Below, one piece after another: positions 19,026 through 34,886 of a DNA stretch of 64,000 bases. The first letter of the stretch is position 1, and each line of letters opens with the position of its first letter. The stretch comes from Acidobacteriota bacterium (lineage in GTDB: Bacteria; Acidobacteriota; Terriglobia; Acidiferrales; UBA7541), in contig JABCZF010000004.1 of NCBI GenBank assembly GCA_013289825.1, forward strand, positions 62,001-126,000. The letters run 5' to 3'. The position numbers and the translations under genes were made by a program. Below the pieces are notes generated by a model that saw nothing but the letters and a program-made list of their open reading frames with translations, searched no databases and had not been told where the DNA came from.

Positions 19026-20306
19026 GTGAAACGCGTCCTCGTTTGGGTTATTCTCTTCGCTATGCCGGTTCGCTCTTCGCTCGCCCGACAATCCACTCGT
19101 TCCGCCTCCGTCGGCCAGCTTGGCGAAAACGCGCAAGTCCGCGCGGCCCTGGCCTGGTTTGCGCCCAATCTCGTTTGGATCAATGACCAGCAAGCCCGCT
19201 TGACGGAAATTCCCGCGCCCGCTTTTCAGGAAGGCCAGCGTGCGGCGGTGCTTAAAACCCTTTTTTCCGCCGCCGGCCTCACTGTCCAGGTCGATGCCAC
19301 CGGCAACGTGATCGGCGAACTCCGCGGCGTAAACGAAAAAGAGATCGTCGTGCTCTCCGCACATTTGGATACCGTCTTTCCGGCGGGAACGGACGTCAAA
19401 GTCCGCCACGAAGGCAGCCGCATGCTGGCGCCCGGCATTTCCGACAACGGCACCGGCCTCGCCGCGCTGGCGGCCATCGCGCGGGCCCTTCAGGAAGCGC
19501 AAATCAAACCGCAGCGCACCATTCTCTTCGTTGCCGATGTCGGCGAGGAAGGCGAGGGCAATCTCCGCGGTATGCGCGCCCTCGTCGATGCCTACCGCAG
19601 TCGCCTTAAAGCGGTAATCGTTCTAGACGGTGCTGGCACCGATCACGTGACCACCATCGCGCTGGCCTCGCGCCGCCTCGAAGTGATCATCAGCGGCCCC
19701 GGCGGCCACAGTTGGTCGGACTTCGGCATGCCCAATCCGATCAACGCTCTGGTTCGCGGCTCCATGCGTTTCATCAATACCAAGGTTCCAGGATCGCCGC
19801 GCACCACGTTCAATCTAGGACAAATTGACGGCGGCACTTCTATAAATTCGATTCCTTACCAAGCCCGCCTCAAGGTCGACGTGCGCTCTGAAAGCGAGAG
19901 TGAGCTAGCGCGCCTCGAATCTGCTCTGCGCGAGTCGATGGCTGCCGGCGTTCGCGACGAAATGGAGTCCCCCCGGGATCGTTCGCGAGGCAAGCTCGAG
20001 TGGAAGGTGGAACTCCTCGGCAGCCGGCCCGGTGGCGAATTGGCGGCAGGGTCGCCGCTTCTCGCGGCCTTGCGCGCTTCGGATGCTATGGTGGAAAACG
20101 AATCACGGATCGAGCGTTCTTCGACCGATGCAAACATTCCTCTTTCTCTGGGAATCGACGCGATCTCTATTGGCGCCGGAGGCAACGGCGGCGGTGCGCA
20201 CTCGCTCCAGGAATGGTACGACCCAGCAGGCCGCGAAATGGGACTGAAACGCGCCCTGCTCACGCTGCTTGGGGTTGCAGAGGTGGCTCCGGAGAGACCT
20301 AAATGA
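19026..20306 (+). CDS. exported M20-family metallopeptidase
   Basis: A 426-residue M20 zinc peptidase. GTG 19026 gives a signal-peptide-like start (KRVLVWVILFAMPVRSSLA), while TTG 18996, overlapping the previous stop, is the alternative. Metal ligands of the family are visible: SAHLDTVFPAG, GISDNGTGLAAL, ADVGEEGEGN and the C-terminal GGGAHSLQEWYDP. A dimerisation domain lies between (GPGGHSWSDFGMPNP). It probably removes residues from peptides or deacylates amino acids in the periplasm. Its stop overlaps the next start by 4 bases, so the two exported hydrolases are coupled. Confidence 0.85.
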   Translation: MKRVLVWVILFAMPVRSSLARQSTRSASVGQLGENAQVRAALAWFAPNLVWINDQQARLTEIPAPAFQEGQRAAVLKTLFSAAGLTVQVDATGNVIGELRGVNEKEIVVLSAHLDTVFPAGTDVKVRHEGSRMLAPGISDNGTGLAALAAIARALQEAQIKPQRTILFVADVGEEGEGNLRGMRALVDAYRSRLKAVIVLDGAGTDHVTTIALASRRLEVIISGPGGHSWSDFGMPNPINALVRGSMRFINTKVPGSPRTTFNLGQIDGGTSINSIPYQARLKVDVRSESESELARLESALRESMAAGVRDEMESPRDRSRGKLEWKVELLGSRPGGELAAGSPLLAALRASDAMVENESRIERSSTDANIPLSLGIDAISIGAGGNGGGAHSLQEWYDPAGREMGLKRALLTLLGVAEVAPERPK

Positions 20307-22030
20307 AGATTCGCGGGACCAGTTTGCTGTATCTCGGACTGATTGTTTTTTTCAGTTTCTGTGCCGGCGTATTTGTTCTGCGGGCCAAAGCCCAATCCTC
20401 CCAGACCGACTCGCATACCGTCGTTTATCTCCACGGACGCATGTACACGAATGATCCGGCTCATCCGTGGGCCGAGGCCATGGCCATTCGCGACGGCAAG
20501 ATTCGCTGCGTCGGCAAAATCGATTACGTGCTCCTGGAATGCGGAGGAAATGAGCCCAGCGCCGAAACCGTCCAGCTCAAAGGCAAATTCCTCATGCCAG
20601 GTTTCAACGACGCCCACGTGCACCTCGGCGGAGCGGGGGCGGATATGCTCTCCGTGCGGCTAAATGGCGTGGCCACTATCGAGGAGCTGCAGAAGCGCGT
20701 AGCCGACGCCGTCACCCAGCACAAAGAGGGAGAGTGGATCACCGGCAGCGGCTGGGATCACACGCTCTGGGCTGATAAAAAATTTCCCACGAAACAAGAG
20801 CTCGATGCCGTGGCGCCAAAGAATCCTGTTTTTCTCACGCACGTTTCGGGTCACGTGGCCGTGGCCAATACGCTGGCCCTGCTGCACGGCGAAATCAAGC
20901 AGGACACGCCGAATCCTCCGGGCGGCATGATCGAGCGCGGCGCCGACGGCGCAGCCACCGGCATGCTCGAAGAAGATTCCGCCATGAGCCTGGTTTCCGC
21001 CAGGATTCCCGACCTCAAATCCGAGCAGCGCCTCCGGGGCATCCAGATGGTGCTCGCCGATGCCGCCAAGAATGGTGTCACCTCGGTGCAGGATTTTTCC
21101 GATTGGTCCGACTTCCTCGTTTATGTGCAATTGAAAGAAGAAGGGAAGCTCACGCTGCGCATCACGGAATGGCTGCCCTTTCTCCTTCCGACAAATGAGT
21201 TGCTGAATATGCGAGCGCAGGGCGGCACTACGGATCCCTGGCTTCGCACCGGCGCTTTGAAAGCCTTCACCGACGGCGCGCTAGGGTCGCGCACCGCTGC
21301 CTTGCTTGCGCCCTACGCGGATGATCCCTCTACCAGCGGAATCTTGACGAATGATCCTGATAAGCTGCGCGCCATGGCCATTGAGCGCGATAAAGCCGGT
21401 TTCCAGTTGAACTTTCACGCCATCGGTGACCGCGCCAACCGCGTGGCCCTCGATGTCTTCGAAGCCGTCGCCAAAGCCAACGGCCCGCGTGACCGCCGCG
21501 ACCGCGTCGAACACGCGCAAGTTCTGGCGCCCGAGGATTTGCCGCGTTTCGCGCAACTCAAAGTGATTGCTTCGATGCAGCCTTCTCACGAAACCACCGA
21601 CATGCGCTGGGCCGGTGCGCGCATCGGCCCCGACCGCTCCAAGGGCGCCTATGCCTGGGCCTCTTTAGAGAAGAGCGGAGCCCATCTGGCCTTCGGCACA
21701 GATTACCCCGTGGAGTCCATCAATCCAATACGGGGGCTTTATGCCTGCGTGACCCGCGAGCTGCCGGATGGCGGTCCTGCCGGCGGCTGGCAGCCACAGG
21801 AAAAAATTTCGCTGGACGACTGCATCCGCGCCTATACCTCCGGCTCCGCCTATGCGCAATTCGAGGAAGGTAAGAAGGGCGAGCTCAAAGCTGGCGAATT
21901 AGCCGACTTCATTGTTCTTTCGAGCGATCTCACCAAGATTCCACCACAGCAGTTCACCAAAACCACCGTTCTTCTTACCGTCGTAGGGGGCCGCACGGTC
22001 TACTCGCAGGATGGAAGTTCGCCTCATTGA
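20303..22030 (+). CDS. exported amidohydrolase, YtcJ-like
   Basis: A 575-residue amidohydrolase with an N-terminal hydrophobic segment (LLYLGLIVFFSFCAGVFVL), so it is secreted or membrane-anchored. Metal-site motifs of the YtcJ/amidohydrolase-3 group are present: GFNDAHVHLGGAG near residue 101, FHAIGDRANRVALDVFEA near 373, RVEHAQVL near 406 and FGTDYPVESINP near 465. Its natural substrate is unknown. ATG 20303 overlaps the peptidase stop (ATGA), suggesting the two act on related peptide or amide substrates. Confidence 0.87.
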   Translation: MKIRGTSLLYLGLIVFFSFCAGVFVLRAKAQSSQTDSHTVVYLHGRMYTNDPAHPWAEAMAIRDGKIRCVGKIDYVLLECGGNEPSAETVQLKGKFLMPGFNDAHVHLGGAGADMLSVRLNGVATIEELQKRVADAVTQHKEGEWITGSGWDHTLWADKKFPTKQELDAVAPKNPVFLTHVSGHVAVANTLALLHGEIKQDTPNPPGGMIERGADGAATGMLEEDSAMSLVSARIPDLKSEQRLRGIQMVLADAAKNGVTSVQDFSDWSDFLVYVQLKEEGKLTLRITEWLPFLLPTNELLNMRAQGGTTDPWLRTGALKAFTDGALGSRTAALLAPYADDPSTSGILTNDPDKLRAMAIERDKAGFQLNFHAIGDRANRVALDVFEAVAKANGPRDRRDRVEHAQVLAPEDLPRFAQLKVIASMQPSHETTDMRWAGARIGPDRSKGAYAWASLEKSGAHLAFGTDYPVESINPIRGLYACVTRELPDGGPAGGWQPQEKISLDDCIRAYTSGSAYAQFEEGKKGELKAGELADFIVLSSDLTKIPPQQFTKTTVLLTVVGGRTVYSQDGSSPH

Positions 22031-22433
22031 GAACGTCCCAGCCCAGGAAGAAAACTTCCGCCGAATTCTAGTAGCACAAATAATCGAGGGGACCTTGCGG
22101 CCCCTGCGGTTTGCCGGATGGCTCATTTTTGTCTCGTGCGTCGTCGCGATTTCTACCCGCGGAAACGGATCGCGAGCGGCATGATGCGCGGCGTCACGTC
22201 GCCGGAAGCGCCGCCCAAGCCTGCGAACTACGCAGTAAGCAGGGCCGGGACGATCGACTGGAAATCCATGGCGTATTTCCATCGACGCTATCCACCGGAA
22301 GTGAAACTCTGCTGCGCAAACGGTTGTGGTTGCAGATTCAGAAGTACTAGGACTACGTAACCGGACGGGACCCTCTCGTTGAAATTACATAAATTAAATC
22401 TAAAATTTATCTTAACTGAATGTCAGATTCTCG

Positions 22434-22462
22434 TTGACAAAGCGACGGAGCGGCAATATATA
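22434..22462 (+). promoter_or_regulatory. strong sigma-70-like promoter upstream of receptor 1
   Basis: Perfect -35 TTGACA (22434-22439), a 17-base spacer and -10 TATATA (22457-22462), preceded by AT-rich DNA. It lies about 390 bases before the receptor start, so it would make a long leader or an unrecognised short RNA. Confidence 0.5.
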
Positions 22463-22635
22463 GGCCGGTTATAAACCTGTGGTGAGATGTTGTTGCCAAT
22501 CCAAGAGTGTGGAAGACGGTGATGTCGCTCCATTCGTTCACCGTGATTTCGCTCTGTCGCTACGTGGGGAGCTGCACGGTCGCCGGGGGGAAAACCATGG
22601 AGCGACATACGGCGGGGCGGACGGCGTAAAGGCAA

Positions 22636-22850
22636 TTGATATTAATTTTAGATAATTCATGAAGATCGCTTGGTTGCGCTCCTAGGACGCCATGGTGCCT
22701 GGTCTGCATTTGCTTTTGCGATACGGTTGCTCTCGTGGTGGTTGTCTGACTCAAGAAAATCTGGATCTCTGAGATTAGTTGACTCGGTTTGATCTGCTTC
22801 ACCTGCTCGAGAAGTTAGGGGCTCTCAAGGCCCATCCAGGAGGTAGTTGA
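22636..22850 (+). repeat. conserved receptor leader, copy 1
   Basis: Begins TTGATATTAATTTTAGATAA and runs to the start codon 215 bases on. It shares with copy 2 (27138-27353) that opening block, a central ATACGGT...TGGTGGTTG block and the final AAGGCCCATCCAGGAGGTAG containing the ribosome-binding site AGGAGG. Matches are interspersed with diverged DNA, which looks like selected elements. Confidence 0.7.
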
Positions 22851-25800
22851 ATGTCAAGTAAGCGAGTGGCTCTTCTCCTAGCTGCACTGTGTTGTTTCTT
22901 AACTTTGACCCCTTCGGCCCTGTTTTCGCAAACCGCGGGCACGGTAAACGGCTTGGTCACTGACCCCTCGGGTGCTGCAGTTGCTGCGGCGACGGTGACT
23001 TTGACCGATAAAGCAACGGGGTCGCCACGAACGACAACTACGAACGAAGCAGGGAGATACGTCTTCGTTGAGGTTCCCTCTGGCACTTACGATCTTAGTA
23101 TCAGTAAGACGGGGTTCCGCGTTACAAAGCTCGCCGCCCAAAAAGTGACCGTTGGTAGCGAGCTCACGCTTAATGCTGCGCTGGAAGTGGGCACCATATC
23201 CCAGACAGTGGAAGTGACCGCTGTGCGCGGTGCGCAACTGCAGACCGAGAACGCAACCATGGGGAGCACCGTGAGCGGCGACACGCTGCTCGCCCTGCCA
23301 AACTTAAATCGTGACGCTACGTCACTCCTAACCTTGCAGCCCGCCACAGCACCCACCGTAGGCGGAGGCGATGTCTATGGTGGTCAGGTGGCCGGTTCCT
23401 TGAGCGACCAGAATACTTACCTGCTGGACGGCGGCAATTTCACGAGCGACCTGGAGGGTGACAACGGCTACCAGCACTCCGGCATGGGCGCCATTCCGAC
23501 TCCGATAGAAAGCATTGAGGAGTTCAAAGTGGCCACCAACAATCAGACCGCGGACTTCTTCTCCTCCGCCGGCGGGCAGGTTATGTTGGTGACCAAGCGC
23601 GGCACAAACAGTTTCCACGGATCGGCCTACGAATACTTCCAAAGCCAGGTGTTTGACGCCAACACGTGGGACAACAACCGCCTCGGTAATCCGATCGTGA
23701 AGTTTCACGACAACCGTTTCGGGGGCAGCGTAGGCGGGCCCCTGCTCCCCGGCAAGCACCTGGGAGGCAGGACGTACTTCTACGGTTTCTATGAGGGCCG
23801 GCGCTTTCCGGGAACTGCGCAAATCGAGGAGTGGGCGGTACCCTCCGCTTTGATGAGGCAAGGCATCCTTCAATTCAAGGATAGCAGTGGCGTGATCCAT
23901 CAAGTCAACCTGCAGACTTCGACGGCGTGCAATGTCACGGCGACCAATGCGACCGGGGCCTGTGACCCGAGAGGCATTGGCATTAGCCCAGTTGTATCTA
24001 AGATGTGGAACACCTTCATGCCGCTTCCCAACGACCCGAGCTACAACGCCAACGGGGCAGACGCCCTAAATGTCCAGGGATACCGGGCCTCCTTGTCACT
24101 TCCGGAAAAGACAGACTATGGGGCGGTGCGTGTTGATCACGATTTTGGCGACAAGTGGCGGCTTTTTCTATCCTATCGAATTTTCAATGACATAGCCCCG
24201 AGCACCAATCAGATTGATATCGGCGGGTTACTGCCGGGCGACAAGCTTGGCGTCCCGGCCGCCGTTTCGAACAATCCGGCTAGTCCGAAGTATGCGGTAC
24301 TCGGTCTGAACGGAACCCTTACTCCGACTTTGATCAACGAGTTTCACCTTAGCTATTTGCTCAACAACTGGAGCTGGCAACGGCAAGGCGTAACGAAGGC
24401 GATCTCCGGCGTGCCTGCGGGGATCGAGTTCGCGGACTCCCATTTCGGCTGCATGTGCCCAGTCAACATGGACACACAGGATGCTCGCAATCGTATCTGG
24501 GATGGACACGATTGGAATTACAGCGACACCCTTAGCTGGGTGAAGGGCACGCACTACCTTCAGTTTGGCGGCAGCATTGTCCACTGGTGGGACCACCATG
24601 TTCGCGACGACCAAGTGGTCGCGGGACTGCCGGACTTGGTTGACCAGTTGACCAAGGCAACAGGGTTGATAACCTCCGGAGATAACAGGCCGGTCGGGCT
24701 TCCCAGTACTCTGAATAGCATCTGGGATACCCAGTACGCTCAGACACTGGGCATTATTGGAACGGGCGCGCAACTATTTGTCCGTGGTGGAACAGATTTT
24801 CATTTGACCGGCGCAAAGACCTTCGCGGACACCTCGATCATCGACAGTTACAGCCTGTACTTCAACGATTCCTGGAAAATCCGGCCGACCATCACCCTCA
24901 ACTACGGCCTGGAATGGGGTACGCAAATGCCGCCCTACGAGATCAACGGCGTGCAAGATATTGCCGTGGATGCGAGCGGCAACCAGATCAACACGCAGGC
25001 ATACCTTCAGAACACCGTCAACATGGCTCTGAATGGGCAGGTGTATAACCCTGTCATCGGGTTCGAGCCTATCGGTGCTGTGGGCGGTCATCCTAAGTAT
25101 CCCTTCAATCCTTATTACGGAGGCTTCAGCCCCCGTGTGGCGTTGGCGTGGAACCCGAAATTCCAGTCAGGAATCTTGGGCCGCATCACCGGCAACGGCA
25201 AAACGGTCATACGCGGCGGCTTCGCCCGCCTGTATGACCGCAACAACGGCGTGGACTTGGTGCTTGTGCCCCTCCTGGGATACGGCTTCGGCCAAACGAT
25301 CCGGTGCAATGGCGCTGGCATCATCGGTGGCACGTCCAGTTGTTACGGCGGGTCCGGTACCACTCCATCTAATGCGTTCCGTCTCGGCGTGGATGGCACC
25401 AGCGGGCCTTTCCCGGTAGTCCAGCAAGCCCTCCCGATCCCTGCTGAGCCTGGCATTAATTCTCCAGCCGGATCCAACATTTCTTTTCTCGACAACAACT
25501 GGCGGCCCGGTGCGAACAACGGGGTTTCCATCAGTATCCAGCGCGAATTGCCTGACAATATGCTCGTGGAAGTAGCCTACGTGGGCAAGTGGTCCACCCA
25601 CCTTTACCAAGGACTGGACTTGAACAATGTTCCCTGGATGATGACGAAGGGCGGTCAGAGCTTCGCAAAGGCCTATGCCAGTGTCTGGACTGCCGATCAC
25701 GGTGGGACGATGGCCAGTACCCAGCCCTTCTTCGAAAATAGCCTACCGGCAAACTACCTCAATACCACCAATTCGCTTATTACCTCATACAATGCTACGA

Positions 25801-26897
25801 GTGCAGGTAAATCTGCTCCCCTGCCTTTGTGCGCGACGTTTACCTGCGCGGTCCAGACGAATGAAGGCGGCGGGCCCCTTGGGACTGGCAACATTACTAA
25901 CGAAAATGTATATGGAATGTTTCAGGATATGGATACCGGCGCAACTTGCGCGCCCTCAAAACTCTTGCCTAACAACACGCTTTGTCCGTTCACCTTTGGG
26001 ACGGCCCTCCCTGCGGATCTCCAGGGCTATAACTCGATGCTCGGGAACACTACCTTGGGATTCTCCAATTACCAGGCGGGCATTGTCAGGCTGCAAAAGC
26101 GCACCGGGCACGGCCTAACGCTGAACGCCAACCTTACCTGGTCGCATACCCTGTCAACGGTAGGTATCAACCAGGAATATACCCAGGCCAACCCGTCCGT
26201 TCCGTTTAACCTCCGGTACGACTATGGAGCAGCACCCTTTGACACACGCTGGGTATTCAATATGCTCGGCACCTATGAGTTGCCTTTCGGTAAGGGTAAG
26301 TGGCTGGCAACCAACAACGGTATCTTGGACCGGATCATCGGGGGCTGGACTTTCGCTCCGATCTTCCAGTGGAACAGCGGGTTGGTGGAGGAGACCTACA
26401 CGGGTTCCTGCGACGAGTTCGGTCAAGGGAACGTCGCTTTTTGCTCTGGCATGGTACCTTTGTCCGGAGTCAACCTAGGCAACATCAGCCGATCACCCCA
26501 TTATGGCGTCACGTCCAATGGCGGTATCGGCGCCAACGGGGATGCCAGCAATGGCGGAGCCGGGGTCAACATGTTTGCCAACCCCACCGCGGTATACAAC
26601 GACTTCCGGGCGGTAGTTCTGGGTATCGACGGTCGCGCCAACGATCTCGGCCCGCTCTATGGCCAGCATCGCTGGAACCTGGACTTTACCATCGCCAAGA
26701 CCACCCGAATCAATGAACGGATGGGACTCACCTTCTACGCTCAATTCTTCAACGCGTTCAATCACATGGAGTTCAGCGATCCAGGTCAATACGGAACTGG
26801 CGGACTCAATCTCCAGAACCCAGCCGCTTTTGGCGTGTTGAACAGCCAGTTCAACACCCCGCGGCAAGTTGAACTAGGGCTACGGTTCTTTTTCTAG
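22851..26897 (+). CDS. TonB-dependent receptor, Oar-like with carboxypeptidase-regulatory-like domain (receptor 1)
   Basis: A 1348-residue outer-membrane protein. The signal peptide ends near SALFSQ (residue 27). A CarboxypepD_reg-like beta-sandwich follows (VNGLVTDPSGAAVAAATVTL to ~110), then a plug-like region (TYLLDGGNFTSD, TKRGTNSFHGSAYEYF). A long beta-barrel ends in a terminal aromatic strand (QVELGLRFFF). By family it imports a large substrate or has an Oar-like surface role. Ligand unknown. Many closely spaced cysteine pairs lie in predicted loops. It is paralogous to the next gene, sharing its leader and first residues MSSKRVAL. Confidence 0.88.
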   Translation: MSSKRVALLLAALCCFLTLTPSALFSQTAGTVNGLVTDPSGAAVAAATVTLTDKATGSPRTTTTNEAGRYVFVEVPSGTYDLSISKTGFRVTKLAAQKVTVGSELTLNAALEVGTISQTVEVTAVRGAQLQTENATMGSTVSGDTLLALPNLNRDATSLLTLQPATAPTVGGGDVYGGQVAGSLSDQNTYLLDGGNFTSDLEGDNGYQHSGMGAIPTPIESIEEFKVATNNQTADFFSSAGGQVMLVTKRGTNSFHGSAYEYFQSQVFDANTWDNNRLGNPIVKFHDNRFGGSVGGPLLPGKHLGGRTYFYGFYEGRRFPGTAQIEEWAVPSALMRQGILQFKDSSGVIHQVNLQTSTACNVTATNATGACDPRGIGISPVVSKMWNTFMPLPNDPSYNANGADALNVQGYRASLSLPEKTDYGAVRVDHDFGDKWRLFLSYRIFNDIAPSTNQIDIGGLLPGDKLGVPAAVSNNPASPKYAVLGLNGTLTPTLINEFHLSYLLNNWSWQRQGVTKAISGVPAGIEFADSHFGCMCPVNMDTQDARNRIWDGHDWNYSDTLSWVKGTHYLQFGGSIVHWWDHHVRDDQVVAGLPDLVDQLTKATGLITSGDNRPVGLPSTLNSIWDTQYAQTLGIIGTGAQLFVRGGTDFHLTGAKTFADTSIIDSYSLYFNDSWKIRPTITLNYGLEWGTQMPPYEINGVQDIAVDASGNQINTQAYLQNTVNMALNGQVYNPVIGFEPIGAVGGHPKYPFNPYYGGFSPRVALAWNPKFQSGILGRITGNGKTVIRGGFARLYDRNNGVDLVLVPLLGYGFGQTIRCNGAGIIGGTSSCYGGSGTTPSNAFRLGVDGTSGPFPVVQQALPIPAEPGINSPAGSNISFLDNNWRPGANNGVSISIQRELPDNMLVEVAYVGKWSTHLYQGLDLNNVPWMMTKGGQSFAKAYASVWTADHGGTMASTQPFFENSLPANYLNTTNSLITSYNATSAGKSAPLPLCATFTCAVQTNEGGGPLGTGNITNENVYGMFQDMDTGATCAPSKLLPNNTLCPFTFGTALPADLQGYNSMLGNTTLGFSNYQAGIVRLQKRTGHGLTLNANLTWSHTLSTVGINQEYTQANPSVPFNLRYDYGAAPFDTRWVFNMLGTYELPFGKGKWLATNNGILDRIIGGWTFAPIFQWNSGLVEETYTGSCDEFGQGNVAFCSGMVPLSGVNLGNISRSPHYGVTSNGGIGANGDASNGGAGVNMFANPTAVYNDFRAVVLGIDGRANDLGPLYGQHRWNLDFTIAKTTRINERMGLTFYAQFFNAFNHMEFSDPGQYGTGGLNLQNPAAFGVLNSQFNTPRQVELGLRFFF

Positions 26898-26925
26898 AAA
26901 ACCACAGAATCTCATCCAAACCTAG

Positions 26926-26954
26926 GAGGGCCGGTTTGCCGGCCCTCACTTTTT
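26926..26954 (+). terminator. rho-independent terminator of receptor 1
   Basis: Nine-base perfect arms GAGGGCCGG (26926-26934) and CCGGCCCTC (26939-26947) around TTTG, followed by ACTTTTT. It begins 29 bases after the receptor stop. Confidence 0.85.
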
Positions 26955-27353
26955 GGTCAGGAACGCGGCCGTGCCCCTCTCTTCTGGTCTCCTCCTGTGT
27001 TCATTTCCTTTCAGAGCGCTTGATCAACGGTGTTCCCCTGAGCGAATTCTGTGCTTCGGCGGTCTGCAAGGTTTCTATGAAACCCTGTAGCTAAATATGG
27101 CACGACATATATATCGTTTATATTGGTGCGCGGGGAATTGACATTAATTTTAGATAATGTATAGACAGCATTTGGTTTAGCGTTTTCTTCCGCATTGGTA
27201 GCTGGCTTGCAAATGTCTTTGCCATACGGTCTTTTTATGGTGGTTGCCCAATTCAAGGATAGTTTGAATTCTCGAGCGTAGTTGGCTTTGCTCGATTTGC
27301 CTCACCTGCTTGAGATGTTTAGGGCTCCGAAGGCCCATCCAGGAGGTAGTTGA
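26955..27353. other. intergenic region between the two receptors
   Basis: About 400 bases, of which the last 216 are the conserved leader copy 2. The first part has no gene. A short AT-rich stretch near 27090-27125 partly resembles the region just before leader copy 1. Confidence 0.5.
27138..27353 (+). repeat. conserved receptor leader, copy 2, with promoter-like start
   Basis: Starts TTGACATTAATTTTAGATAA, 216 bases before the start codon (copy 1: 215). Here TTGACA (27138-27143) and TATAGA (27160-27165) stand 16 bases apart and may be a promoter. In copy 1 the equivalent boxes are TTGATA and CATGAA. The last ~60 bases, including AGGAGG, are nearly identical in both. Confidence 0.65.
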
Positions 27354-30300
27354 ATGTCAAGTAAGCGAGTGGCTCTGTTTCTAGCTGCGTTGTTCTGTTT
27401 CTTTGCAGTGGTTCCCTCGGCTTTGTTCGCTCAGAGCGCATCAACTGGTACAGTCGCCGGAACGATTACCGACCCCTCCGGCGGTGCCATTGTCGGCGCG
27501 ACCGTTACGTTGATCGATACCGCGACGAGTATTGTGCGCACGGAAACAACGAATGAAACAGGGAGATATTTTTTCGCGAACGTGGTGCCGAGCAAATACA
27601 CCGTTTCTGTGAGCAAGACCGGTTTTCGTGTCTCGAAGCTCGTCGACCAGGAGGTGTTAGTCGGCGCTCCACTCACCTTGAACGTCACGTTGGAAATTGG
27701 CTCCGTCGCTGAGACCGTCGAAGTGACCGTCACCACTGGCGCCGAACTGCAAACCTTGAACGCTACTGTCGGCAACACCGTAGGCGGGGAACTCTTGCAG
27801 AACTTGCCTTCGATCCAGCGGGATGCCGCTACTTTCGTAACCTTGCAGCCGGGCGTCTCTCCCGATGGCAGCGTGGCTGGCGCGGTCACGGACCAAAGCA
27901 CCTTCATGCTTGACGGTGGCCAGAATAGCAACGATATGGACGGCAGCATGGCGGTTTACACGCCAAGCTTCGCCGGCGATCCGACCGGTGGTGTCGTCTC
28001 ACACCAGATCGGTGGCAGCCCCACAGGGGTGATGCCTACGCCCCTCGACAGCGTTGAAGAGTTCAAGGTCAATACCGCCAACCAGACTGCGGACTTCAAC
28101 AGCTCCGCCGGCGCGCAGGTTCAGGTGGTCACCAAGCGCGGCACCAACGCCTGGCATGGCACTGCCTATGAATATTATTTCGATAACAATTTTAACGCGA
28201 ACACGTTTGATAACAATTTTACGGGAACGCCTCTGCCTAGCTACCACTACAATCGCTTCGGCGCGTCTGGTGGTGGCCCGATCATTTCAAAGAACATTCT
28301 GGGCGGGAAGACCTATTTCTTCGCCAACTATGAAGGTTTCCGCTGGAACAACTCGCAGACCTATGAGGTCGCGGTGCCTTCTGCTGACATGCGAAACGGC
28401 ATTCTTCACTTTGATGTATGCAATGCTGCCTGCCAGGCGACTGGCGGCCCCGCGCCGGTGCCCACCACGTTCAACATGTTGTCGGGTACTAACTGTGGCC
28501 CCAGCGGAACTGCCGCGTGCGACCCCCGAACCCTCGGAATCAATTCCTTGGTCCAGCAGATGTGGAACAAGTTCGAGCCCGTGGGGAATGACCCGAGCTG
28601 CGGCGCTTTATTTGGTTCGCACTGCGATGGCATCAACGAAATAGGATTCAAAGCCAATGTCTCGGTTCCCCAGACCTCCAATTTCGGAGTGGCCCGCCTG
28701 GACCACGACTTTGGTTCAAAGTGGCATTTCAATAGCAGCTACCGCTACTACAAAGTGGTTCTCGCCACTACCAATCAGGTGGATGTCGGCGGCTTCTTCG
28801 CCGGCGACACACTGGGTACACCCGCAGCCCTCTCCGTACGCCCGCAACAGCCGTGGTTTTTCGTGGCAGGTTTAACCACCAACATCAGCTCTAACACTAC
28901 AAACGATTTGCACTACAGCTTCCTTCGCAACTACTGGTCTTGGTCCAATCCCGGCGGTGTGACCCAGTTCTCCCAACTTGGCGGCGCCCTTGAGCCTTTC
29001 GGCGAGACTGCCACCGAGGTGCTCGCCCCTTACAACGTGAACACCCAGTCCGTACGCACGCGGTTCTGGGATGGCCACGACAATTTCTTGCGCGATGACG
29101 TCACCATGCTGAAAGGCAATCACCTCTTCACCTTCGGTGGCGCCTATCAGCGCAATTGGGACTACCACCAGCGCTCCGATAACGGTGGCGGCATCAATTA
29201 CCAGCCCACCTACCAGCTTGGTGACTCGGCCGGCGGCGGCCTGGTAGACTTCTCTGCCACCAATCCTGCTGGCGTGACCAAAACCACCTGGGCTCGCGAC
29301 TCTTCCGCCGTTCTGGGCATCGTCACAGATTCACAAATCGCTTATACGCGGGCCGGCAACAATCTGGCGCTGAATCCCCCGCTTACCCACGCTTTTGACC
29401 AGAGTACGATCCCCTACTACAACGTGTACTTCAGTGATTCCTGGCACATGAAGCCGTCCTTTACCCTGACCTACGGTTTGGGCTGGACGCTCGAGATGCC
29501 GCCGACCGAAGCACATGGCAAGCAGGTCGAACTCGTGGATGCCAGCGGCCAGCAGCTTGACCTGGCTACCTACCTTAAACAGCGGGAGTCTGCTGCTCTG
29601 GCGGGACAAGTCTACAATCCGTCGGTGGGTTTTGCCCTCGTCGGCAACACCGGCTCGGGGCAGAAATACCCCTATAACCCGTTCTACGGCTCGTTCAGCC
29701 CGCGCATTGCAGCGGCTTGGAACCCGAACATCAGCGATGGCTTCCTGGGCAAGGCGTTTGGTGGAAGGAAATCAGTTGTACGGGGCGGCTATAGCCGTGT
29801 CTACGGACGCTTAAACGGAGTGGATTTGGTTCTCGTACCGCTTCTGGGTACGGGGCTCATCCAGGCTGTCCAGTGCCGTACCAACAACATGAATGGAACT
29901 TGCAACGGCCCCGTCAGCGTCGCCAACGCTTTCCGGGTTGGTACCGACGGCAACAACGCCCCAATTCCGGTCGCCTCGCCCACTCTTCCGCAGCCAGTTT
30001 TTCCGGGCATTAACAGCGTCTCGGCTGCAGCCGGCGAAGCTTTAGACCCGAAGTTCCGTCCCAACGTGGTGGACTCGTTCGACTTGACCATTCAGCGGCA
30101 GTTGGGTAACAAGTTCATCCTGGAACTGGGATACATTGGGCGGAGAATCACGCACGAGTATCAGCCCGTCAACATCAACGCTGTGCCGTACATGATGACT
30201 GTGGGCGGGCAGCAATTTGCCAAAGCTTATGCAGCCGTTGAGACCGGACTGGGCTGCGCCACCTCCTTTGCTGCTTGCGGTGCGGCCATTCCCACGAACT

Positions 30301-31406
30301 CGAACGCCGCTTTGCAGAAGGCGCAGCAAATCGCGTACGCCAACGCTTTCACACCCCAACCATTTTTTGAGTCGGCGCTAAATCCTGCCTACTGCGCCGG
30401 GTTTTCGAGTTGCACCGCAGCCGTCGTGTACAACGAGGGCATTGCTAAGAGCAACTTGACCAATCAGGCGGTTTGGAGCTTGTGGAGTGATCTCGATCAC
30501 GGAGGGTTTAACTTCCCCCGCAGCATGCTGAATTCACCGCTGAACTGCCCGACCGGTGCGGAAATCGGTTGCAACGGTCAGTTGTCGTCCGGCGTCGGCG
30601 TCAATGCCAGCATCGGCCACGGCAATTACAACGGCGGGTTCGTTTCACTCAAGATGAACAACTGGCACGGGATCACCCTTCAGGAAAACTTCACGTACAG
30701 CAAGGCCTTGGGCACGGGAGCTTATGTCCAGGCCACCAGCGAGTACACGGAGAACGATCCCTTCAACCAAAACAATCAGTATGGCTTGCAGAACTTCGAT
30801 CGGAAGTTTGTGTTCAACACCTACGCGATGATAGACGACCCCTGGTACAAGGGCCAACACGGCATCATCGGCCATATCGCGGGTGGTTGGTCATTGTCAC
30901 CGATTCTCGCTATCGGCAGCGGCGCGCCGATCGGCTGCGGTACGAATACCGACGGCCAGTCTTTCGGCTCAGGTGACGGTGCCAACTTCTTCACAAACGA
31001 AAACTGCGTTTTCACAAAAGCGTACTCCGGGGGATCAGCCTCGCTGCACAACAATGCTGGTCCTGGCGCTTTCAACATCTTTGCGGACCCCGCCGGATTG
31101 CTAAGCACTCTTCGCGCGCCAATTCTGGGTATCGACAACGGGACGGGCGGCGCTGGCATAATCCGTGGGCTGCCGTATTGGAACGTGGACATGAGGTTGG
31201 TGAAAGACATTCATATCCTGGAGCGCGTCAGCCTCCAGTTCCAGTATGTCGTCACCAACGTGTTCAACCACCCGGTGTTCGCAGATCCGAACGCGTCATT
31301 CTTTGTCCAGGGCGTCGATCCAACCTCTGCGGGGTCCTTCGGTGTTGTCAACAGCCAGGCCAACAACCCCCGGCAGATGCAGTTCGGTCTCCGCCTAACT
31401 TTCTAA
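27354..31406 (+). CDS. TonB-dependent receptor, Oar-like with carboxypeptidase-regulatory-like domain (receptor 2)
   Basis: A 1350-residue paralogue of receptor 1. It has a signal peptide ending SALFAQ, a CarboxypepD_reg-like domain (VAGTITDPSGGAIVGATVTL), a plug-like region (STFMLDGGQNSND, TKRGTNAWHGTAYEYY) and a barrel ending QMQFGLRLTF. The N-terminal ~250 residues are well conserved with receptor 1 and the outer loops have diverged, as expected for paralogues binding different ligands. It is rich in short-range Cys pairs (TNCGPSGTAACDPR, SCGALFGSHCDG). No SusD-like lipoprotein or TonB/ExbBD gene is nearby. Confidence 0.88.
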   Translation: MSSKRVALFLAALFCFFAVVPSALFAQSASTGTVAGTITDPSGGAIVGATVTLIDTATSIVRTETTNETGRYFFANVVPSKYTVSVSKTGFRVSKLVDQEVLVGAPLTLNVTLEIGSVAETVEVTVTTGAELQTLNATVGNTVGGELLQNLPSIQRDAATFVTLQPGVSPDGSVAGAVTDQSTFMLDGGQNSNDMDGSMAVYTPSFAGDPTGGVVSHQIGGSPTGVMPTPLDSVEEFKVNTANQTADFNSSAGAQVQVVTKRGTNAWHGTAYEYYFDNNFNANTFDNNFTGTPLPSYHYNRFGASGGGPIISKNILGGKTYFFANYEGFRWNNSQTYEVAVPSADMRNGILHFDVCNAACQATGGPAPVPTTFNMLSGTNCGPSGTAACDPRTLGINSLVQQMWNKFEPVGNDPSCGALFGSHCDGINEIGFKANVSVPQTSNFGVARLDHDFGSKWHFNSSYRYYKVVLATTNQVDVGGFFAGDTLGTPAALSVRPQQPWFFVAGLTTNISSNTTNDLHYSFLRNYWSWSNPGGVTQFSQLGGALEPFGETATEVLAPYNVNTQSVRTRFWDGHDNFLRDDVTMLKGNHLFTFGGAYQRNWDYHQRSDNGGGINYQPTYQLGDSAGGGLVDFSATNPAGVTKTTWARDSSAVLGIVTDSQIAYTRAGNNLALNPPLTHAFDQSTIPYYNVYFSDSWHMKPSFTLTYGLGWTLEMPPTEAHGKQVELVDASGQQLDLATYLKQRESAALAGQVYNPSVGFALVGNTGSGQKYPYNPFYGSFSPRIAAAWNPNISDGFLGKAFGGRKSVVRGGYSRVYGRLNGVDLVLVPLLGTGLIQAVQCRTNNMNGTCNGPVSVANAFRVGTDGNNAPIPVASPTLPQPVFPGINSVSAAAGEALDPKFRPNVVDSFDLTIQRQLGNKFILELGYIGRRITHEYQPVNINAVPYMMTVGGQQFAKAYAAVETGLGCATSFAACGAAIPTNSNAALQKAQQIAYANAFTPQPFFESALNPAYCAGFSSCTAAVVYNEGIAKSNLTNQAVWSLWSDLDHGGFNFPRSMLNSPLNCPTGAEIGCNGQLSSGVGVNASIGHGNYNGGFVSLKMNNWHGITLQENFTYSKALGTGAYVQATSEYTENDPFNQNNQYGLQNFDRKFVFNTYAMIDDPWYKGQHGIIGHIAGGWSLSPILAIGSGAPIGCGTNTDGQSFGSGDGANFFTNENCVFTKAYSGGSASLHNNAGPGAFNIFADPAGLLSTLRAPILGIDNGTGGAGIIRGLPYWNVDMRLVKDIHILERVSLQFQYVVTNVFNHPVFADPNASFFVQGVDPTSAGSFGVVNSQANNPRQMQFGLRLTF

Positions 31407-31439
31407 CTTCTTCCGGCGAGTCTCGACAAACTTGCCGCA

Positions 31440-31474
31440 AAAACGGGGAAGGCCTTCGCGGCCTTCCCCGTTTT
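31440..31474. terminator. strong, possibly bidirectional terminator of receptor 2
   Basis: Fifteen-base perfect arms AAAACGGGGAAGGCC (31440-31454) and GGCCTTCCCCGTTTT (31460-31474) around TTCGC. An A-run on one side and a T-run on the other allow termination in both directions. Confidence 0.88.
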
Positions 31475-31692
31475 GCATTTTGCGCGATGGTTGTGGCACG
31501 GCGGCTTGTCCGGCGCAAGCTTTTAGTCCCGGGAAGCTAAAAACACGGAATTTTCTCTCGCCGATATGAGCTGACGGTTAGGTGCACGCATTCGCAATTC
31601 TCGGGCTGTCGCGCTGTGAGTGCCTGCAAGCATTGTCAGTCCTGGCCACAAGAATTACACTGACCCGCTTGTCGTCGAGCGACACCCCCGTC

Positions 31693-32655
31693 ATGACGAA
31701 GCGATTCCGCGCCGACCTGTCCCTCGCTTTCTGCAGCCTGCTTTGGGGCGCTACATTTGCCGTGGTCAAAAACTCCCTCGATTATTCGTCGGTCTTCGTG
31801 TTTCTGGCCGCGCGCTTCACTCTGGCAGCGCTTCTGATGGCCGCATTCCGCCCGCACGTCTTTCGCACCCTCGAAAGGGAAGAGCTGCTCGCCGGCGCGG
31901 CCCTGGGCTTCTTCATGTTTGGAGGCTACGCCTTCCAAACTGCCGGTCTCGAGTACACCACCCCCGCCAAATCTGGCTTTGTGACCGGTTCCAGCGTGGT
32001 CATGGTCCCGCTGCTGCTGGGGATCTTCTGGAGGCGACGCCTTACCCGCTGGGTCTATGGCGGCGTATTCGCCGCTGCCTTGGGCCTCTATTTCCTCACC
32101 GTGCCATCCGAGGGCCTCTCGCACCTCAACCGCGGCGACCTCCTCACATTTGTCGCTGCGGGGCTTTATGCCATGCATATTATTCTGGTCGGGGATTACA
32201 CTCGTCGGCACTCGGTCGCCGCGCTCAGCGTGCTCCAGGTTGCGGCCTGTGCCGCTCTGGCGTGGCTCGCAACTGGTCTAGGTTCTCTAAGCGGCTGGCA
32301 GCCCGCGCGATTCGCATGGCAGGGAAAGGCGCTCCTGGGGATGGCCATCTGCGCCGTGCTGGCGACCGCCGTGGCCTTCTCCATTCAGCTTTGGGCGCAG
32401 CAGTACACTACAACCAGCCACGCCGCCATTTTATTTACGCTCGAGCCGGTCTTCGCTTCGATGACTTCCTACATTTTATTGCGCGAGAGGCTCGGTAACC
32501 GCGCGCTGTTCGGCGCGGCGTTTGTGCTTGCTGGCATCCTGATCGCTGAGTTGCTTGGCCCGCCGGCTGCTCCCGAATCCCCGGAGCCTACCGGGGCCGA
32601 TCCGCCGGAATCGCCTCCGCCGACGAGCGCTCGAAGAATAGCGCTCGAAGAATAG
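31693..32655 (+). CDS. EamA/DMT-superfamily transporter
   Basis: A 320-residue inner-membrane protein with about ten hydrophobic helices in two EamA repeats (LSLAFCSLLWGATFAVVK at the start; AAILFTLEPVFASMTSYILL in the second). Such proteins export metabolites or amino acids; the substrate is not predictable. Start ATG 31693 (MTKRFRADLS) is preferred to an upstream in-frame ATG at 31582 whose extra residues look non-coding. The C-terminal ~35 residues are Pro/Glu-rich and end in a duplicated 14-base unit. It is convergent with leuD, three bases apart. Confidence 0.85.
   Translation: MTKRFRADLSLAFCSLLWGATFAVVKNSLDYSSVFVFLAARFTLAALLMAAFRPHVFRTLEREELLAGAALGFFMFGGYAFQTAGLEYTTPAKSGFVTGSSVVMVPLLLGIFWRRRLTRWVYGGVFAAALGLYFLTVPSEGLSHLNRGDLLTFVAAGLYAMHIILVGDYTRRHSVAALSVLQVAACAALAWLATGLGSLSGWQPARFAWQGKALLGMAICAVLATAVAFSIQLWAQQYTTTSHAAILFTLEPVFASMTSYILLRERLGNRALFGAAFVLAGILIAELLGPPAAPESPEPTGADPPESPPPTSARRIALEE
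32626..32653 (+). repeat. 14-base tandem duplication at the end of the EamA gene
   Basis: AGCGCTCGAAGAAT occurs twice in direct succession, followed by AGCGA. The second copy supplies the stop codon TAG (32653-32655). Without it the frame would continue over the end of leuD. Confidence 0.8.
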
Positions 32656-32658
32656 CGA

Positions 32659-33303
32659 TTATTGTCGAGCGTTGACGTAGTTCTTTACGTCGACCGCTTC
32701 GTACATTGTGGCTGTTGCGCCGTGAGCTTTTTCGTAGCTGGTGATATCTGTTTCGTGTTGCAGTGATGTGCCGATATCGTCGAGGCCTTTCAGCAGAACT
32801 TCCTTGCGCGACGGTGCCAAATCGAAGCGGAACATCAAGCCGTGCCTGTCGGCAACGGTCTGATTCGGAAGGTTCACCGTCAGCATGTAGCCTTCTTCCT
32901 TTTCCGTGCGCTGGAAAAGTTCCTCGACCTGCTCCTCACTCAGGGAAGCGGGCAGAATTCCGTTCTTGAAGCAATTATTGTAAAAGATGTCCGCGTAGCT
33001 TGGCGCGATGATTACCCGGAAGCCGTAGTCCTTCACCCCCCAGGGCGCATGCTCGCGGCTCGATCCGCAGCCGAAGTTATGTCGCGCCAACAGCACGGAG
33101 GCACCTTCATAGCGCGGAAAATTCAGCACGAACTCGGGGTTCGGTCTTTCTCCCGGCAGGTAGCGCCAGTCATAAAACAGAATTCTTCCAAATCCTTGCC
33201 GCGTTAGCGCCTTCAGGAATTGTTTCGGCACCATCTGGTCGGTATCCACATTGACGCGGTCCAGCGGCATAACCATCCCCGTGTGCGTGTTGAAAGGCTC
33301 CAT
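32659..33303 (-). CDS. leuD: 3-isopropylmalate dehydratase small subunit
   Basis: A 214-residue LeuD, the swivelling domain of isopropylmalate isomerase in leucine synthesis. It starts [23 protein letters not shown] (given here only as a recognisable N-terminus) and contains [20 protein letters not shown] near residue 75, the substrate-binding loop. It lies 49 bases downstream of leuC and is expected to be cotranscribed with it, the two forming a heterodimer. Length is normal. Confidence 0.95.
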
Positions 33304-33352
33304 CCGGTCGGCACTCCTTAGAAATTCAAATCGATCTGCGCGAAATCCCTTT

Positions 33353-34774
33353 TTATTCTACGGTTGAGACGTCCAGTGAACGTACATCTACAAAGTGGCC
33401 GGCGATGGCCGCCGCTGCGGCCATTACCGGGCTGACCAGATGGGTGCGGCTGTCCTTGCCTTGGCGGCCCTCGAAATTGCGGTTTGAGGTGCTGGCACTG
33501 CGTTCGTGCGGAGGCAGGACGTCTGCATTCATGCCGATGCACATGCTGCAACCTGCGTCGCGCCATTCGAAGCCGGCATCGCGGAAGATCTTGTCCAGGC
33601 CTTCTTTCTCGGCTTGCGCTTTGATGCCACGCGAGCCGGGCACAATCAAGGCTTGCTTGATGCTGTGCGCTACGTGCTTACCGGCGACCAGATGAGCTGC
33701 TGCGCGCAAATCATCCAGGCGCGAATTCGTGCACGACCCGATGAACACTCTGTCCACTGGAATGTCCACGATCGGCGTGCCGGCTTTCAGCCCCATGTAT
33801 TTCAAAGCGCTTTCTGTGGCTTTCTGATCGTTGGGATCATGGAACGACCCCGGCTCCGGCACGCGTCCCGTCACACTGGTCACCATGCCGGGATTCGTGC
33901 CCCAGGTGACCTGGGGCGCGAGGTCCTGCGCCTCGAGCTCAACGGTCATGTCAAACTTCGCGCCTTCGTCGCTAGTGAGCTTTTTCCATCCCGCGACGGC
34001 TTCTTCAAACGCCTTGCCACGCGGCACAAATGGCCGGCCTTCCATATACGCGAAGGTGGTCTCATCCGGCGCGATCATACCGGCGCGCGCTCCGCCTTCA
34101 ATGGTCATGTTGCAGACGGTCATGCGGCCATCCATGCTCAAATCGCGGATGGCTTCCCCGCCATATTCCGCCACGTGCCCGGTCCCGCCGCTAATTCCGA
34201 TCTTTCCGATGATGGCCAGAATGATGTCTTTGGCCGTCACGCCGCGCGGACGCTTGCCTTCGACCAGGATATGCAGCGTTTTGCTGCGCGATTGCACCAG
34301 GCACTGCGTCGCCAGCACGTGCTCCACTTCGCTCGTCCCGATGCCAAACGCCAGCGTGCCAAAAGCTCCGTGGGTCGAAGTGTGGCTGTCGCCGCAGACA
34401 ATCGTCTGGCCTGGTTGGGTCAGCCCCAGCTCCGGGCCAATGATGTGTACGATGCCCTGGTTACGGCTGTTCATGTCGAAGAGCCGCACGCCGGTCTCAC
34501 GGCAATTTTTTTCTAGCGCTTCAAATTGCAGCCGTGCAGCCGTATCTATAATCGGCAGCGTGCGGTCTTTGGTGGGGACCGAGTGGTCCATCACGGCAAA
34601 CGTCAAGTCGGGCCGCCGCACCTTGCGCCCTTCGGCGCCGAGGCCAGCGAACGCCTGCGGTGACGTACCCTCGTGGATAAGATGCCGGTCGATATAAATG
34701 AGCGCAGGTTTTCCGGCTTCTTCGTGTACGACGTGCGAATCCCAGATCTTTTCGTAGAGTGTTTTTGGCGGCAT
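33353..34774 (-). CDS. leuC: 3-isopropylmalate dehydratase large subunit
   Basis: A 473-residue LeuC, the iron-sulfur subunit that isomerises 2- to 3-isopropylmalate. The start [12 protein letters not shown] is canonical. [4Fe-4S] cysteines lie in [13 protein letters not shown] near residue 350 and in [15 protein letters not shown] near 413. [13 protein letters not shown] near 148 is a substrate-site motif. A promoter with its -10 only ~15 bases before ATG 34774 suggests a very short leader with no Shine-Dalgarno. leuB is not in the window, and a LeuA-family gene is 15 kb away. Confidence 0.95.
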
Positions 34775-34789
34775 GTCAGTTCGTCTCAG

Positions 34790-34818: not shown

Positions 34819-34886
34819 TTGCACGCGTCCCGCTCATGGCAGAGGTTGCTCCTGGCACAGCTAGTCTTGGCTGCGCGCAGTGTCGC

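Follow-up and report, generated by a model that had tools for sequence, protein, structure and literature searches.

A probable RpoN-dependent promoter module, apparently kept in front of recombined outer-membrane receptor bodies in Acidobacteria

SusC-type outer-membrane receptor loci of Bacteroides are phase-variable by DNA inversion. The accessible parts of two papers describe, for sigma-54 promoters, a -24/-12 word TGGCAC N5-7 TTGCT (PMC12316311) and activator dyads about 100 bp or more upstream, with activator motifs such as yGTCA-N6-TGACr for DVU2894 orthologues and GTCA-N6-TGGC for FlrA (PMC4641369). In what is accessible of PMC12316311, sigma-54 control in Flavobacteriia is predicted for TonB, not for receptors, and is there called unconfirmed, and the string Acidobacteri does not occur in that text. 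A literature search, with few subscription papers within reach, turned up no account of Acidobacteria receptors under sigma-54 control, of leader-body mosaics, or of how the giant receptors, dozens of which are present per Acidobacteria genome, are controlled.

The stretch of DNA analysed here (the window, 64,000 nucleotides of an Acidobacteriota genome) holds two giant receptor genes, each encoding an OMP_b-brl_4 barrel with an N-terminal CarboxypepD_reg domain according to Pfam. No Plug family was found in either at E 0.001, and "receptor" therefore means here a member of the barrel family. The genome has about 43 CarboxypepD_reg outer-membrane receptor frames; these families are called Oar-like in Acidobacteria, and the two window receptors have the same domain make-up. 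An earlier note on this DNA had placed related leaders at 22636-22850 and 27138-27353. They are present as placed, a 301-bp stretch of copy 1 retrieving copy 2 at E 2.9e-41, and the AT block with which they begin is indeed shared, but the conserved unit starts earlier, at 27075 in copy 2, and in copy 1 a sigma-70-like promoter, P1, lies at 22434-22462. A promoter-like leader module precedes 15 receptor genes in 12 Acidobacteria genomes, and in it a 36-bp four-box site is followed by an AT block, a GG-N10-GC word and a constant Shine-Dalgarno/start segment. Our main reading, to which we give a probability of about 0.7, is that this is a promoter module for RpoN and an enhancer-binding protein, kept in front of receptor bodies that have recombined. 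The two window copies have these features:

22434..22462, + strand: P1, sigma-70-like promoter of copy 1, TTGACA-17-TATATA (promoter scan of leaders)
22586..22622, + strand: remnant of the putative activator site in copy 1, with TACG the only one of the four TAYG/CRTA boxes still present (alignment; no pattern match)
22634..22656, + strand: AT block of copy 1, with the conserved word GATAAT (22651-22656) at its end (alignment with copy 2)
22693..22708, + strand: sigma-54-type -24/-12 word of copy 1, TGGTGCCTGGTCTGCA, 8 of 12, CTGC for TTGC; predicted start about 22719
22838..22869, + strand: start segment of copy 1, AGGAGGTAGT, ATG, AAGCGAGTGG (codons 4-6 and one base) (exact-match search)
22851..26897, + strand: receptor 1, 1348 aa, CarboxypepD_reg and OMP_b-brl_4, body class A
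22898..22925, + strand: putative crossover in the signal-peptide codons of receptor 1 (site-by-site comparison)
26926..26952, + strand: terminator-like hairpin of receptor 1, 9-bp stem and T run
27075..27110, + strand: putative activator site of copy 2, four boxes in two tandem dyads, CTATGAAACCCTGTAGCTAAATATGGCACGACATAT (pattern search)
27136..27158, + strand: AT block of copy 2, GATAAT at 27153-27158, 42 bp past the activator site
27196..27211, + strand: sigma-54-type -24/-12 word of copy 2, TGGTAGCTGGCTTGCA, 9 of 12; predicted start about 27222
27341..27372, + strand: start segment of copy 2, AGGAGGTAGT, ATG, AAGCGAGTGG (exact-match search)
27354..31406, + strand: receptor 2, 1350 aa, CarboxypepD_reg and OMP_b-brl_4, body class B

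Between the two copies, 22 of 23 positions are identical in the AT block, 83 of 121 columns from the sigma-54 word to the ribosome-binding segment, and 45 of 47 from before the ribosome-binding site to codon 8. The ribosome-binding segment is thus as near-identical as the earlier note had it, with conservation extending into codons 4-6 (AAGCGAGTGG), and the islands it saw in the diverged middle include the GG-N10-GC word. These islands recur in other genomes at near-fixed spacing, which gives good support to the shared regulator proposed in the note; the finding that it had named as a refutation, islands unconserved in other genomes with these receptors, did not occur. The start segment (AGGAGGTAGT, ATG, AAGCGAGTGG) has 13 exact matches in 10 of 151 genomes, and the reversed control has none. 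Within the own genome its exact form belongs to the two window genes only, all 29 other receptor loci examined being without it; the block TTGAYATTAATTTTAGATAAT occurs exactly twice genome-wide with up to 3 mismatches allowed, and no third leader copy above chance was found there. Two internal repeats were rejected, GTGGTTGCC with 17 near-matches (shuffle mean 1.15) and GCGAGTGGT with 18 (mean 1.29; 14 of the 18 are the constant codons), both counts being inflated by shared ancestry. TTTAG repeats of 11 bp lie upstream of P1 and in the AT block and exceed shuffles in some leaders only, and both AT blocks pair inverted with 22398-22418, upstream of P1.

The GG-N10-GC word matches a sigma-54 -24/-12 promoter. 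In a scan for a TGGCAC-N5-TTGCW-like word, with GG and GC ten bases apart required, it was the top match within each of the 15 leaders, at -128 to -176 from the ATG and with scores of 7 to 11 of 12, the words of L081 (7) and window copy 1 (8) being weak. The summed score of 143 compares with a maximum of 98 in 500 shuffles, although the shared ancestry of the leaders inflates this sum. RpoN (PF04552) is encoded in 35 of 36 genomes of the genus, the own genome among them, and enhancer-binding proteins (PF00158) have 15 matches in the own genome, 11 of them strong; seven of these activator proteins were given to Pfam, and all have Sigma54_activat and six an HTH_8 hit. Two candidates for the activator of the module were traced through the other 35 genomes of the genus: L107 is not supported, with orthologues of at least 80% in just 2 of them, and L106, with such orthologues in all but one, is not diagnostic. 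For seven of the 11 activator proteins, a search of the 64-kb window, the 12 neighbourhoods and L098 at E 1e-5 gave no relative; a Crp-like gene at 35392-36243, also set aside, has none among the neighbour-gene clusters.

The 36-bp site is TAYG-N6-CRTA twice, 20 bp apart, and is recognisable in 13 of 15 leaders, two boxes being changed in L098 and the site decayed in window copy 1. Among 89 family genomes its pattern found 11 distinct sites before these receptors and 5 others, and the reversed control gave 13 matches. The spacing is rigid: 30-32 bp from the site to the AT-block word in 12 of 13 leaders (42 in window copy 2; 32 in L098), and from that word, whose TAA is invariant in 14 leaders, exactly 44 bp to the GG in 10 of 14, otherwise 43, 45, 45 and 46, with 44 in the held-out L098. 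The AT-block word was also considered as a sigma-70 -10 with a class I activator. TAA, its most constant letters, fits a -10 poorly, and we dropped this since the geometry is better accounted for by the GG-N10-GC word that lies 44 bp downstream; the spacing statistic behind it (0 of 2000 shuffles) still holds, and there may be a sigma-70 promoter at the AT block, at least in copy 2 (TTGACA-16-TATAGA). A canonical IHF consensus, frequent but not obligatory at sigma-54 promoters, is unsupported in the stretch that separates the activator site from the promoter, where the summed match is 102 against a mean of 100.7 in shuffles, 115 of 300 of which reach it.

Farther upstream, a sigma-70-like promoter is present in 13 of the 15 leaders (12 of 14, and L098). 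Of the 12, nine score at least 10 (shuffle mean 0.036 per 700 nt), and the other 3 score 9.5 with a spacing of 16 or 18 (shuffle mean 0.31 at 9 or more); P1 of copy 1 is absent from a strict scan demanding T at position 6 of the -10. In copy 1 the sigma-70-like promoter survives and the activator site has been lost; in copy 2 the activator and sigma-54 sites survive and there is no sigma-70-like promoter. With such opposite control sites, expression of the two window receptors probably depends on different conditions.

From these sequence features we infer the use of sigma-54, the binding of an activator and a bending of the DNA at the module, the leader being a promoter module plus a 5' untranslated region. 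An enhancer-binding protein (an AAA+ activator) would occupy both tandem dyads, some 120 bp ahead of the predicted start (some 130 in window copy 2). The intervening DNA, with the AT block in it, would bend or loop, and RpoN-RNA polymerase poised at the GG-N10-GC word would be opened. The transcript would then carry an untranslated stretch of roughly 100-150 nt (132 in the window) and the constant, strong Shine-Dalgarno/start segment, and most leaders would have the sigma-70-like promoter as an additional one. Recombination would either have put new receptor bodies behind a preserved module or have converted the leaders, and for receptor 1 the joint would fall within its signal-peptide codons.

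The earlier note had thought also of an RNA element, and one could picture the 36-bp site as a hairpin in a long P1 transcript, where it would join the AT block and GG-N10-GC in an element that controls translation in the manner of a riboswitch or by binding a protein. In 11 of 13 site-bearing leaders the site is downstream of P1 and so may be transcribed; it can be drawn as a hairpin in which the varying conserved pairs 4/33, 12/25 and 13/24 are all G-C, A-U or G-U, and RNAalifold pairs the TTGC of the untranslated region with the GCGA of codons 4-6. In single folds, however, the latter pairing has a probability of 0.00 in 13 of 14 cases (0.37 in one), and among 13 loci the hairpin loses pair 1/36 in 3, pair 5/32 in 2 and pair 11/26 in 3. 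The site is 36 bp without length change across these loci, and its conserved tetramers, one every 10 bp in alternating orientation, are the pattern expected of DNA boxes. Its distance to P1 varies from 26 to 146 nt, yet that to the AT-block word is nearly fixed, and copy 2 carries the site but no P1. The covariance check that the note had suggested gave, for 14 leaders, a consensus fold of -2.59 kcal/mol with two-sided change in none of 16 pairs; no common fold emerged, Rfam had no match in 22300-27500 up to E 1, and a structured RNA leader appears improbable. The stem GGGCT...AGGCCC, said to be able to fold over the ribosome-binding site, is located immediately ahead of the Shine-Dalgarno instead of over it; copy 1 has it in its minimum-energy fold, copy 2 does not, and the majority of the 14 folded leaders lack it. 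It speaks for the note that pairing of the Shine-Dalgarno is frequent in single folds (mean unpaired probability 0.15 for copy 1, 0.32 for copy 2, 0.05-0.69 overall), but the partners differ, and the single folds do not agree with one another near the ribosome-binding site.

Divergence, which the note had seen in the protein loops, marks the receptor bodies as a whole, with 43% amino-acid identity (561/1299) and 35% identity at fourfold sites (106/306). The body of receptor 1 is nearest to L086 (75%) and L083 (74%), that of receptor 2 is 70-74% identical to L084, L087, L089 and L090. The gene of receptor 1 is mosaic, with a leader and first codons that match the receptor 2 lineage and a remainder that matches receptors of other genomes: before +60, 19 sites are like W2/L089/L090, 2 like L086/L083 and 1 like neither, and from +60 to +1000 the figures are 5, 85 and 7. 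Leader and body trees conflict (AU p 6e-64 and 5e-4), for groups picked after the body-identity comparison had been seen and with several bodies cut by contig ends or frame breaks. The 3' flank of receptor 1 matches the flank after L086 (90.6% over 32 nt), and its hairpin is a terminator-like site with 9 pairs, 8 of them G-C, in a region where the number of such sites, 4, is not above chance (shuffle mean 4.9). One conserved neighbourhood has differing receptor classes in different genomes with related leaders in front, and the window has class A and class B on one leader lineage. Trees of leaders and of neighbour genes concur in the window clade but not everywhere: L087 is separated by its leader from L079, L080 and L088, and L084 groups with L081 in the leader tree and with L085 in the neighbour tree. 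One conserved control region in front of very different receptors suggests that it was kept while the receptor behind it was exchanged. The receptor choice of which the note spoke holds in an evolutionary sense only, with leaders of a single type in front of different receptors; there was no sign of switching inside a cell.

As to the route of the exchange, one tentative possibility is a receptor expression site, in which one activator-driven sigma-54 promoter and its constant start segment are kept and recombination in the leader and signal peptide imports whole bodies, with their own terminators, from other lineages; if so, these Acidobacteria would change their surface receptor and keep signal-dependent control. 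A search for silent donor bodies among the 29 other receptor loci of the own genome (87% complete) gave at best 35% identity. Nearly an even chance can be given to differential loss, where an ancestral tandem array held several receptor classes, each with its own leader copy, of which genomes retained different members, while gene conversion made the leaders of the same genome alike and no body was imported. The window itself is a tandem of class A and class B, its clade is the one where leaders agree with the neighbour-gene tree, and G016 and G030 each have two such receptors; on the other hand, conversion would have to halt at the signal peptide, several losses are required, and class A of G016 and G030 lies outside the conserved neighbourhood. 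Differential loss is compatible with the promoter reading of the leader. That the genes are adjacent and co-directional, with leaders 72% identical over 160 nt, would suit a recent whole-gene tandem duplication in which the leaders are alike for want of time, but for the bodies this is refuted by their low identities and their places in different clades and receptor classes, and we give it next to no credence. An active DNA-inversion system (a phase-variable promoter or shufflon) that recombines at the leader is also very unlikely. A constant 5' end before varied outer-membrane bodies is typical of such systems, but the own genome lacks a third leader copy above chance, none of the 25 longest of 45 inverted repeats in 20000-35000 pairs leader with leader, and the neighbours given to Pfam include no recombinase except an IS66 transposase near L086.

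With the RpoN module as the preferred reading, the receptors of one subgroup gain a concrete and testable, if putative, control logic of RpoN and an enhancer-binding protein, and a precise DNA site with which the activator could be fished out. The locus would be a clear case of a promoter kept while receptor bodies are exchanged, which could let a surface receptor, and with it perhaps the specificity for nutrients or phages, change with its regulation intact.

The module resembles the sigma-54 promoters of the glnA, nif and psp type in its -24/-12 word, its upstream activator dyads and its rigid spacing, and differs from them in that its target is a giant OMP_b-brl_4 receptor of Acidobacteria and that a canonical IHF site was not found. 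The glnA gene also has an upstream sigma-70 promoter, a likeness to the upstream promoter of the module. With the DVU2894 and FlrA motifs the site shares inverted tetramers and a 6-bp spacer, whereas its letters, TAYG-N6-CRTA, and its two dyads 20 bp apart are its own. Unlike at the SusC-type loci of Bacteroides, no inverted leader copies were seen here among the repeats listed and no invertase among the neighbours given to Pfam, and the exchange would take place between genomes and not within the cell, but both have a constant 5' region with varied outer-membrane bodies behind it.

The two giant receptors of the window and their surroundings are as follows.

22434..22462 (+): P1 of copy 1, a sigma-70-like promoter
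22851..26897 (+): receptor 1, 1348 aa, behind leader copy 1 (W1)
27354..31406 (+): receptor 2, 1350 aa, behind leader copy 2 (W2)
35392-36243 (-): Crp-like regulator (cNMP_binding + HTH_Crp_2), 4 kb downstream of receptor 2

Both receptors carry CarboxypepD_reg and OMP_b-brl_4, and Pfam finds a plug domain in neither at E 0.001. The earlier note described paired leaders with a common AT-rich block and a near-identical ribosome-binding segment before diverged proteins, and this description holds: 301 bp of copy 1 matches copy 2 (E 2.9e-41), 22 of 23 bases of the AT block and 45 of 47 of the start segment are identical, and the bodies share 43% of their residues and 35% of fourfold sites. Judged from sequence, we read the leaders as a putative sigma-54 promoter module with a double activator site that, together with an upstream sigma-70-like promoter, was retained while the receptors changed.

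Parts of the leader, from upstream to downstream
P1, farthest upstream: TTGACA-16/17/18-TATA[TC]A, in 12 of 14 leaders and in L098, a locus kept out of the derivation
Activator site, 36 bp: CTATGAAAGTCCRTA-N6-TAYGG-N5-CRTAG, recognisable in 13 of 14 leaders
AT-block word: [TGC][AG]TAA[TA], at the end of the AT block, downstream of the 36-bp site
GG-N10-GC word: mostly TGGTA-N6-YTTGCW, 44 bases past the AT-block word in 10 of 14 leaders (others 43, 45, 45, 46)
Untranslated region: 100-150 nt, weakly conserved
Start segment: AGGAGGTAGT, then ATG, then AAGCGAGTGG

As DNA, the activator site is TAYG-N6-CRTA-N6-TAYG-N6-CRTA, two tandem dyads 20 bp apart with one conserved tetramer per 10 bp and a constant length. 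Across 89 family genomes, with at most three mismatches, the pattern hit 11 distinct sites in front of these receptors and 5 further ones, against 13 reversed-control matches; it did not catch the sites of receptor loci L089 and L090, which have diverged further. The AT-block word follows at 30 (one locus), 31 (three), 32 (eight) or 42 bases (window copy 2), and none of 2000 shuffles reached the score for the 30-32 spacing. The AT block may bend the DNA between activator site and promoter, a role put forward by inference, since these leaders show no enrichment of the canonical IHF consensus. The AT block of copy 1 (22633-22653) has an inverted near-copy upstream of P1 (22398-22418, 81% over 21 nt), and several leaders have TTTAG repeats spaced 11 bp, upstream of P1 and within the AT block; a second DNA-binding protein may bind in both places.

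The GG-N10-GC word resembles the -24/-12 word of sigma-54 promoters, which a passage of PMC12316311 gives as TGGCAC N5-7 TTGCT. Best scores summed over 15 leaders reach 143 (maximum of 500 letter shuffles, 98), and single words score from 7 (locus L081) and 8 (window copy 1) up to 11 of 12. P1 lies 26 to 146 bp upstream of the 36-bp site, scores at least 10 in nine leaders (shuffle mean 0.036 per 700 nt) and 9.5 in three, and is absent from window copy 2 and L088; a strict promoter scanner omits it because the sixth base of its -10 is A. Allowing one mismatch, the word GTGGTTGCC is present in three separate stretches of these leaders: codons 10-12, about -108 to -138, and -338 to -389 (17 near-matches, shuffle mean 1.15).

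The start segment was searched as GGAGGTAGT-(0-6)-ATG-(3-9)-AAGCGAGTGG, exact, over 151 related genomes, which gave 13 matches in 10 genomes, every one of them among the 36 of the window's genus, and none for the reversed pattern. Genome G017, added through the 36-bp site, brings the module to 14 loci in 11 of the 36. An exact scan of an 84,980-genome collection gave 13 stretches, L098 being the new one, and the total is 15 loci in 12 genomes, titled as Acidobacteria MAGs (gp1, gp2 or unstated) and by wording from soil and bog. L096 (CAJCHZ010000017.1), titled Betaproteobacteria, shares its match position with G006:C17 of the window's genus, and its title is probably wrong. As an independent test, L098 has P1 at -432 and 44 bases from CGTAAT to the sigma-54 word; its activator site, in which two of the four boxes are altered, precedes CGTAAT by 32 bases.

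In the window's own genome both exact start-segment matches lie inside the window, and the segment is absent from the 29 other receptor loci examined. Sigma-54-like words stand at about the module's distance in two of these 29, L037 (-169 from a guessed start; score 10 of 12) and L047 (-175; 9 of 12). Their start codons (AAACGACTC, AAGCGACTC) resemble those of the module, and the four-box site is missing from both. In four further loci a word scoring 9 or 10 is placed differently. AAGCGAGTGG is nucleotide-constant in 15 of 15 loci, a set defined by the same word. It makes up codons 4-6 (window 22860-22869 and 27363-27372), CGA arginine codon included, against 26-52% identity at fourfold sites elsewhere in the pairs compared; no cause was found for the constancy.

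The earlier note also thought of an RNA element, which the searches did not support. Rfam returned nothing up to E 1 for 22300-27500, and RNAalifold on 14 leaders gave -2.59 kcal/mol with two-sided change in none of 16 pairs. The pairing that it predicts between codons 4-6 and the sigma-54 word turns up in one of the 14 single folds, at probability 0.37, and stands at 0.00 in the other 13; near the ribosome-binding site the single folds vary among leaders, the Shine-Dalgarno often being paired all the same. Drawn as an RNA hairpin, the 36-bp site has three varying pairs that are always standard and three others broken in some loci, and by itself it does not decide for or against RNA.

Upstream of the receptor lies a conserved neighbourhood of aldehyde dehydrogenase, HMGL-like, M20 peptidase and Amidohydro_3 genes, in which the receptor-body class varies by genome.

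Body classes in the conserved neighbourhood
Class B: L084, L087, L089, L090
Class C: L081, L082, L085; L080 assigned by N-terminus
Class D: L088; L079 at contig end
Class A plus B: window

Receptor 1 has its closest bodies beyond this neighbourhood in other genomes (75% to L086, 74% to L083), and receptor 2 is 70-74% identical to the class B bodies L084, L087, L089 and L090. The last 160 nt of the receptor 1 leader are 78% identical to the same stretch of the L089 leader, 72% to that of receptor 2 and 59% to that of L090, but 44% to that of L086 and 39% to that of L083. The leader tree joins W1, W2, L089 and L090 (99/98) and the body tree W1, L083 and L086 (100/99). AU tests reject the body grouping on the leader (6e-64) and the leader grouping on the body (5e-4), with groups picked after the identities were known, several bodies partial, L080 omitted from the body tree, and a long-branch warning at the junction of L079/L088 with the class A rows. 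Neighbour genes (HMGL-like and Amidohydro_3) follow the leaders in joining the window, L089 and L090 (100/100) and in placing L079, L088 and L080 together; L087 falls with the latter by neighbours, not by leader, and the L081/L084 and L082/L085 pairings differ.

Receptor 1 has 123 informative sites, 119 within the tallied range. Before +60, 19 are leader-lineage, 2 class A and 1 neither; the counts between +60 and +1000 are 5, 85 and 7. The run's last leader-lineage site is +73 and the first class A site +74; the switch falls inside positions 22898-22925 of the window. The 3' hairpin of receptor 1 is like that after L086, and that of receptor 2 like those of its own class. As hairpins match body class and the switch lies in the signal peptide, the exchanged unit seems to span signal peptide through terminator. 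Misassembly is an unlikely cause of the window's mosaic, since about 28% of positions differ between its two leaders. Bodies may have been imported, or an ancient array may have lost members while its leaders underwent conversion. At L086 an IS66 transposase fragment (1743-2393) precedes by 1.3 kb a class A receptor that has the leader and lies beyond the conserved neighbourhood; the element is a possible vehicle of spread.

For the retained promoters, inputs seem divided between the window copies: copy 1 has P1, a decayed activator site and CTGC at -12, and copy 2 has the activator site and TTGC and lacks P1. Being behind receptor 1's terminator-like hairpin, copy 2 probably needs its own promoter. 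RpoN (PF04552) occurs in 35 of 36 genus genomes, and PF00158 gives 15 matches in the own genome (11 strong), seven of them typed. A search with seven activator proteins brought up no relative at E 1e-5 within the window, the 12 neighbourhoods or L098. Two activator genes were traced, L107 with orthologues of at least 80% in G014 and G031 only and L106 in all genus genomes except one, and by this distribution neither is indicated as the activator. Nothing related to the Crp-like regulator turned up in the neighbour clusters of other genomes.

Our literature search found no account of sigma-54 promoters for these Acidobacteria receptors, nor of a leader-body mosaic. Promoters of the sigma-54 type with activator sites are in themselves a familiar class. 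PMC4641369 places activator sites at least 100 bp upstream, with motifs of the same 4-N6-4 geometry as the 36-bp site, and a passage in PMC7175178 has activator DNA-binding domains in pairs on such sites, with looping aided by IHF.
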